In this document: piece by piece, positions 1,211 to 63,578 of the stretch
Layout: each line of letters opens with the position of its first letter
How positions within the stretch are numbered: position 1 is the first letter of the stretch
Origin: Bacteroidales bacterium
Lineage (GTDB): Bacteria > Bacteroidota > Bacteroidia > Bacteroidales > UBA932
DNA length: 64,000 nt
NCBI GenBank assembly: GCA_022508605.1
Contig: JAFLUX010000004.1
Span: 1 to 64,000 of the forward strand
Reading direction: 5' to 3'
Program-made: the position numbers and the translations under genes
Notes under the pieces: model-generated
Databases searched by the model: none
The model's input: the letters and a program-made list of their open reading frames with translations, nothing else
What the model was told of the DNA's origin: nothing

Positions 1211-1807
1211 TTATTCGGTAGCAAGCACGGTTCTCTGTCCTTTGGTGACAAGACCGGATTTTGAACTCAACGCGGCTTCATTCTTTGCGTTCTGTGCATT
1301 TGGGTCTTTGTGCCAGAACTGCGAGCTTTTGATTAAGTTGACATCTGCAGCCGTGGCCGAGCGGAATTTGACATAGTTTGCAGGGTAGCCCAATATGGTA
1401 ATCCGAATCACGTAGCGGTCGCCGTCCCTGTCGGACTGGCCGTCATTGTCATCGTCCACCGTCCTGGCGCTTGTCTGTGCGCCGACTATGACATCAGCAT
1501 TGTACTCGTAGGCGAAATCAAACAAAGCTTGACGCTTGAGCTGATCGATAGTCTGCAATTTGTCTGTATCGTTTGTGTACAGGTGGTAGTCCCTCTTGAA
1601 TTCTTTGGGGTGCTTGGACACGCTGTCCTGAATCTGAACCTCGGCCAGGAGCGGTGTTACCAGAAATTCGTGAGTTGCTTCAAGATTTCGTGCTGCAGTA
1701 GAACTGTGGTGATAGTTCTCATTTACGCGAAAACTTTCACGCTGGGCCGAGGCAAACGTAGAATTCAGCAGGAGTGCGCCGGCGAGAAAAACAAAAAACT
1801 TTTTCAT
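1211..1807 (-). CDS. Secreted hypothetical protein
   Basis: 198-aa ORF with signal peptide MKKFFVFLAGALLLNSTFASAQ; 51 bp upstream of the next minus-strand gene. Confidence 0.75.
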   Translation of the reverse strand: MKKFFVFLAGALLLNSTFASAQRESFRVNENYHHSSTAARNLEATHEFLVTPLLAEVQIQDSVSKHPKEFKRDYHLYTNDTDKLQTIDQLKRQALFDFAYEYNADVIVGAQTSARTVDDDNDGQSDRDGDRYVIRITILGYPANYVKFRSATAADVNLIKSSQFWHKDPNAQNAKNEAALSSKSGLVTKGQRTVLATE

Positions 1808-1860
1808 CTAAAAACTTTTTGTACATTCCGGCTCCTCAAAATGCGAAATCGTTAAACAAC

Positions 1861-1944
1861 AAAAAAAGTGTGGAGCCTCTTTCGTATATTCTTCCGAACG
1901 CTCTCGACTGCGTGAAACAAAAATATACAATCCGTACTCCACAC
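1861..1944 (-). terminator. Long rod-like intrinsic terminator 5' of the 1211-1807 gene
   Basis: Minus strand GTGTGGAG...GTATATT...AATATAC...CTCCACAC followed by TTTTTTT. Confidence 0.65.
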
Positions 1945-2110
1945 CCGCCTTGTATGGAGTACCTGATGGGCAGAAGCCCACCGACTGCATATAATCAAGA
2001 CGAGCTGAGTGTTGGCCGTATCCCTTGTTTCTGAAAATTGTCGAGATTTTCGGAAAGGACACGCGAAAACACTTTCGCTAATATGTCTGCCACCATTATG
2101 GGATGGCAGG
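1861..2110 (-). ncRNA. Candidate structured ncRNA or 5' leader with attenuator-like terminator
   Basis: Several perfect inverted repeats (1868-1875/1937-1944, 1884-1890/1922-1928, 1934-1941/1955-1962, 1967-1971/1976-1980, 2063-2068/2073-2078, 2087-2092/2104-2109); 3' U-run (A1861-1867 on plus); upstream TAnnTTTG element. Confidence 0.55.
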
Positions 2111-2112
2111 CG

Positions 2113-2144
2113 CAAAAATACTATTTTTAATTCAATGTTGCAAC
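2113..2144 (-). promoter_or_regulatory. Bacteroidetes-type promoter (-33 GTTG, -7 TATTTTTG)
   Basis: CAAAAATA at 2113-2120 is TATTTTTG on minus; GTTG lies 20 nt upstream. Confidence 0.5.
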
Positions 2145-63493: not shown

Positions 63494-63578
63494 GCCTTGG
63501 TGGTGAAATGGTAGACACGAGGGACTTAAAATCCCTTGGCCCGAAACGGCCGTGCGGGTTCGATTCCCGCCCGAGGCA
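63494..63578 (+). tRNA. tRNA-Leu(TAA), CCA not encoded
   Basis: Acceptor GCCTTGG/CCGAGGC; anticodon arm GGGA-CTTAAAA-TCCC; T-arm GCGGG-TTCGATT-CCCGC; long variable arm. Confidence 0.95.

Follow-up and report, generated by a model that had tools for sequence, protein, structure and literature searches.

Bacteroidales, a dominant order of the gut and rumen, has few known regulatory RNA classes. The closest described systems are attenuating riboswitches with pseudoknots, for example the cobalamin riboswitch, in which L5 forms a kissing loop with L13 of the expression platform. The leader described here, on the minus strand of a 64,000-nt stretch of a Bacteroidales genome (the window), has in common with them a long 5′ leader, mutually exclusive hairpins, a U-run hairpin, a loop-to-leader pseudoknot before the gene and near-isoenergetic folds. 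It differs in having no Rfam riboswitch match, in the three-part body of long-range 5′-3′ pairings and in targets that do not belong to one pathway. Cyclic-di-GMP riboswitch regulons are, by analogy, alike in use, with several copies per genome before different and often surface-related genes, but the structure of the leader is different and there is no ligand evidence for it. Bacteroidales-1 and 6S RNA (RF01693, RF01685) are likewise structured Bacteroidetes RNAs with their own promoters, whereas the leader has another structure and is linked in cis to genes; no cmscan match to either was obtained for the leader even at E-values up to 10. The processive antitermination RNAs of the EAR/epsC type are comparable as structured leaders with a pseudoknot affecting termination. 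EAR/epsC RNAs are located within long exopolysaccharide operons, whereas each leader here lies directly before one, often small, gene.

Rfam scans of the leader and its relatives at curated and permissive thresholds gave chance-level matches only, and the riboswitch criterion of a match to a described class is thus not met in the window or in the relatives. Within the window, only a tRNA gene (63494-63578, plus strand) scores above an Rfam threshold. No description of the family was found in the literature searched, from which the supplementary candidate lists of two studies were excluded; one gives thousands of candidate microbiome RNAs (PMC8040213) and the other 104 motifs (PMC2864571), and a fragment of the leader may be among them. 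The family, which is spread across Bacteroidales, is apparently undescribed and best read as cis-regulatory. By analogy, it may resemble an attenuating riboswitch or a protein-sensing leader, with no described class matched. A riboswitch is defined by ligand binding, for which there are no data here, and the leader is therefore not classed as one.

Architecture of the leader at the locus

The whole leader is about 290 nt long (2113-1824) and continues past the U-run as far as a hairpin at 1843-1824 (Table 1). No Pfam match was found for the product of the gene behind it, the N-terminus of which is signal-peptide-like. The original prediction, made from the sequence alone, described the shorter hairpins, the -7 box, a long rod and the U-run on the minus strand, and all of these held, as did the placing of the ATG 53 nt past the U-run. 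Its claim that a shared TGGAG segment (1941-1937) makes two pairings exclusive also held and could be extended, P7 being covarying and P8 conserved. The predicted fold was incomplete, however, as the strongest helices, LR1-LR3, and the hairpin past the U-run had been missed. Folding supports a structured RNA: the minimum free energy (MFE) of minus-strand 1855-2110 is -92 kcal/mol as compared with -66.8 +/- 4.6 for shuffled sequences (z -5.45; 0 of 200 shuffles as good). For the window leader, estimates that leave pseudoknots out put the P7 fold and the P8 fold about 1 kcal/mol apart.

Table 1. Coordinates of the leader, its pairings and the gene behind it (window positions)
Feature	Position	Strand	Remarks
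Promoter	2113..2144	minus	Bacteroidetes-type: TTG, 20 nt, then TATTTTTG
-7 box	2120-2113	minus	TAnnTTTG, here TATTTTTG
5′ hairpin	2087..2109	minus	CTGCCA 2109-2104 / TGGCAG 2092-2087; pairing kept, sequence differs between copies
Conserved GCGAAAGTGTTTTCGC with local hairpin H1	2063..2078	minus	GCGAAA 2078-2073 / TTTCGC 2068-2063
LR1, 5′ strand	2049..2055	minus	TTCCGAA; partner 1898-1892
LR2, 5′ strand	2040..2045	minus	CTCGAC; partner 1908-1903; in the loop of P3 (GAAA/UUUC)
LR3, 5′ strand	2025..2031	minus	GAAACAA; partner 1920-1914
P6 hairpin	1967..1980	minus	TGGGC 1980-1976, TTCT loop, GCCCA 1971-1967; missing from short family members
P7, 5′ arm	1955..1963	minus	GGTACTCCA; candidate anti-terminator; short distant members lack it
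P7 pairing	1962-1955 / 1941-1934	minus	GTACTCCA / TGGAGTAC
Hub	1934..1948	minus	GCGGGTGTGGAGTAC; partner is the P7 5′ arm (via TGGAGTAC) or the 3′ arm (via GTGTGGAG, P8)
P8 pairing	1944-1937 / 1875-1868	minus	GTGTGGAG / CTCCACAC
P12	1928-1923 / 1889-1884	minus	GTATAT / ATATAC; run of 10 bp with 8 variable pairs; 84% paired
3′ strands of LR3, LR2 and LR1	1892..1920	minus	LR3 1920-1914, LR2 1908-1903, LR1 1898-1892
3′ arm and T-run	1861..1878	minus	AGGCTCCACAC + T7 (1867-1861); closes P8, terminator-like; AGGCTCC has a second complement in the downstream loop (PK)
3′ hairpin	1824..1843	minus	CATTTT-GAGGAGCC-GGAATG; GGAGCC in the loop (1835-1830) is the complement of GGCTCC in the 3′ arm
Downstream gene	1211..1807	minus	198 aa predicted secreted protein; ATG at 1807, 53 nt past the T-run

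Covariation and spread of the family

More than 220 divergent copies of the leader were gathered, and they retain the same architecture with compensatory changes. In an L-INS-i alignment of 117 copies, analyzed with an APC-corrected G-test, LR1 gives the top covariation signal of the family, with pairs up to 32 sd and 93% pairing, and LR2 and LR3 rank after it. In the model alignment, both sides have changed in 8 of the 8 pairs of LR1 (91% paired) and in 6 of the 7 pairs of LR2 (98% paired), and shifted controls for these double changes are all far lower. The comparison thus shows that LR1, LR2 and LR3 link the 5′ half of the leader to its 3′ half. When the LR, P6 and P7 pairs were added to the model, the scores of distant homologues outside the training set rose from 28.5 to 63.7 bits (G722), from 28.9 to 68.3 bits (G698) and from 66.1 to 113.6 bits (L164), which is an independent check of the added pairs. 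G-U pairs exceed A-C mismatches in all supported helices, indicating that selection acts on the transcribed strand as RNA.

Two small conserved hairpins, GAAA/UUUC and AGGU/ACCU, hold the strands of LR2 in their loops; a kissing pair within a four-way junction is therefore likely, this three-dimensional reading being inferred. P12 is supported by covariation, and the bulged P2 only weakly. The segment AGTGTT (2073-2068) has alternative partners, AACACT at 2013-2008 (helix a-b) and the 3′-end ACACTTT (helix a-d, or P14), and both helices are supported in distant copies, a-d only modestly. Inside the genus, P14 (5′ AAAGUGU / 3′ ACACUUU) is 97% paired without covariation and remains a possible pairing.

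The first covariance model (R1) detected the leader in 198 of the 400 Candidatus Cryptobacteroides genomes sampled, in 89 of 250 genomes of the family (13 of 26 genera) and in 37 of 295 genomes of the order. With the long-range pairs added, the second model (R2) detected it in 40 of the 247 Bacteroidales genomes sampled, or 33 of 173 genera. Outside Bacteroidales it was essentially not found, the sole match being weak and 85 nt long, and no match was obtained in the phage collection searched. Each genome with the leader carries 1-9 dispersed copies, and the source genome has at least 6 full ones plus one truncated by a contig end; divergent, scattered copies were also seen by blastn in relatives. 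The related records come from the rumen, reticulum, horse and other guts. In 174 of 226 copies, the 50 nt ahead of the core contain an exact -7 box TAnnTTTG, as compared with 1.7% of control windows. Comparison thus shows each copy to be a promoter-leader module, most of which stop about 20 nt ahead of the start codon. The genes concerned are unrelated to one another and often encode secreted, lipo- or surface proteins.

Several single loci have features of their own. Tandem copies on the same strand are found in L268 of genome G687 (1159-1001 and 953-780, 47 nt apart), in L167 of G907 (1696-1501 and 1337-1132, 163 nt apart) and in L180 of G780; tandem leaders occur for some riboswitches. Three copies (L132, L141, L145) have ACACTTGAACCG... 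in place of the U-run, lack both a PK loop and a gene behind them, and are possibly decayed or recombined. Among 80 copies (L081-L160), 21 lie less than 1 kb from a contig end where 6 are expected, which suggests strain-variable or repeated surroundings. Serine recombinase (resolvase) genes, mostly divergent from the leader, are near L064, L070, L086, L145, L199, L200 and L007; present at only a few loci, the recombinase was rejected as a constant partner. In L162, which comes from another Bacteroidales family, a DUF805b RNA (RF02914; 2609-2643, plus strand) lies about 0.9 kb downstream of the leader copy.

The contested hub and the genes behind the leader

The hub UGGAG(UAC) can pair either with the upstream GUACUCC (P7) or with CUCCACAC ahead of the U-run (P8). 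P7 covaries (UA 33 and CG 30 at one pair) and is missing in the short distant members L164 and L165, and therefore it is not the universal switch arm. P8 is 99.4% paired within the genus in the model alignment. Among 206 copies, 168 form all 10 of its 10 pairs, and variants such as GUGUGAAG/CUUCACAC and GUGCGAGC/GCUCGCGC are compensated. At least 5 U are present within 8 nt after the P8 stem in 211 of 226 copies, as against 5% of control windows. Two criteria for an attenuator are met accordingly: the anti-terminator (P7) and terminator (P8) hairpins are mutually exclusive and both conserved, short members without P7 excepted, and the U-run is right behind the terminator-like stem.

A second contest concerns the terminal CUCC, which can pair with the hub or with the GGAGCC loop beyond the U-run (PK). 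Across copies this CUCC appears as GGCUCC, CAGCUCC, CAACCUC, GGGCUUC and other forms, and the loop as GGAGCC, GGAGCUG, GAGGUUG and GAAGCC. Of 202 copies, 185 contain the complementary strand, the end of which keeps a near-constant spacing to the ATG behind it (median 21 nt). As PK is downstream of the U-run, it cannot decide termination there, and its use may be translational or purely structural. The pairings were also examined by an alignment-free swap test, in which, for 157 non-redundant copies, the own partner was compared with that of close relatives. The own partner fits better for LR (t=12.1), PK (6.2), the 5′ hairpin (6.2) and P8 (4.1), and among 43 distant copies 0 of 2000 permutations match the observed pairing for LR, P8 or PK. 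The conserved RNA, its cis position, the exclusive pairings and the U-run are thus shown by comparison.

A codirectional ORF starts 20-110 nt downstream in most copies (182), and the criteria for a cis leader, a 5′ UTR position at constrained distance and a covarying secondary structure, are met. Among the first downstream ORFs (non-redundant n=173), 40 are lipoprotein-like and 41 have another hydrophobic N-terminus. The Pfam/NCBIfam matches are scattered over LRR_5/BspA (8), Ig-like, fimbrillin-like, BACON, PEGA and OMP barrels. One common function was rejected, there being 109 Pfam families among 142 proteins, and an anti-phage defence theme found only scattered PADLOC hits. No common function hinting at a ligand was seen among the downstream genes, nor was a common neighbouring regulator gene found among the upstream ORFs. 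Paralogous modules in one genome have the promoter, leader and 3′ hairpin in common and not the coding sequence, so that the module appears to spread before different genes. Likewise, 4 of 5 other homologues of the window gene are without the leader, meaning that the leader is only loosely associated with this gene. At four loci (L093, L123, L140, L151), short ORFs with a Y/L-x-APE-x-E-type motif are right behind the leader, ahead of large lipoprotein genes.

Competing explanations and biological meaning

The best explanation is that the 1211-1807 gene is transcribed with minus-strand 2113-1824 as its 5′ untranslated leader, which regulates it in cis. The evidence tips only slightly in favour of this, no transcript, terminator or ligand data being at hand, and the terminator switch with a body that senses a signal is inferred. 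In this mechanism, P8 with the U-run would be an intrinsic terminator, or the OFF state, and P7, forming first during transcription, would keep the hub from P8. After read-through by the polymerase, PK would take the terminator arm and lock the ON fold. The body folded by the LR helices would sense an unidentified signal, be it a small molecule, an ion or a protein, and set the balance. The switch is best read as cis-acting and of the terminator type, possibly also translational, with its signal unidentified and its expression and function inferred.

The main rival is translational control by the same cis leader, in which PK and the 3′ hairpin would alter ribosome access and P8 would be an alternative state rather than a terminator. 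It draws its standing from PK, which lies after the U-run at its near-constant distance from the ATG and is the switch element most broadly retained, more universal than P7 and present in distant copies as well. This reading is nevertheless unlikely, as translational control does not need the U-run that nearly all copies have after P8, and the 3′ hairpin ends short of the immediate start region. A leader that binds a protein, of the antitermination or autoregulation type, in place of a small molecule overlaps with the best explanation. The large structured body and the lack of a clear ligand theme in the genes are in its favour, but the many unrelated targets speak against autoregulation of a single gene and no common regulator gene stands among the upstream ORFs. 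Such a leader is doubtful as a separate explanation, and protein binding and small-molecule binding cannot be separated from these data.

The original prediction had also allowed an independent sRNA beside a regulatory leader. Of these two options the leader is supported, while regulation itself is not shown, there being no RNA-seq. A free-standing sRNA could account for the promoter, the terminator-like end and the three copies with neither gene nor PK loop behind them, but most copies precede a codirectional ORF, and the conserved element reaches the PK hairpin, beyond the U-run. As a free sRNA would not need a PK placed at a near-constant distance from the ATG, this explanation is disfavoured and very unlikely. 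The criterion of conservation independent of the adjacent gene is not met for an sRNA, its function itself being inferred. Equally improbable is a dispersed DNA repeat or mobile element with palindromes that merely mimic RNA structure. Points for it are the copy number in the source genome, the duplication of modules with promoter and 3′ hairpin ahead of different genes, the enrichment at contig ends and the recombinase genes near a few copies. Against it are the compensatory changes in long-range helices, the tolerance of G-U with A-C rare, the near-constant ATG spacing and the order-wide presence of divergent sequences. Many dispersed copies, which the original prediction would have taken as the mark of a repeat, are literally present, yet they are divergent 5′ UTRs with the covariation among homologues that it had asked for, and not a decaying repeat. 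With the copies divergent, an RNA-strand bias and only occasional recombinase neighbours, the criterion for a repeat or mobile element is not met.

Returning to the cis-acting terminator switch, if its body sets the switch by one signal, several unrelated genes, mainly for surface or secreted proteins, could be controlled together. A bolder reading, which is possible and has no ligand data behind it, is a Bacteroidales-only riboswitch class for a signalling molecule that would co-regulate dispersed surface and secreted proteins, with the two large hairpin loops of the 5′ and 3′ halves paired to each other through LR1-LR3, kissing of the P3 and P13 loops and a three-way CUCC/GGAG strand exchange. 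The exclusive pairings of the leader are open to direct mutational tests. If the proposal is true, the copies, several to a genome, before LRR/BspA, fimbrillin-like, Ig-like and other surface or secreted genes would constitute an unsuspected regulon, and the leader a new sensor, in Bacteroidales.
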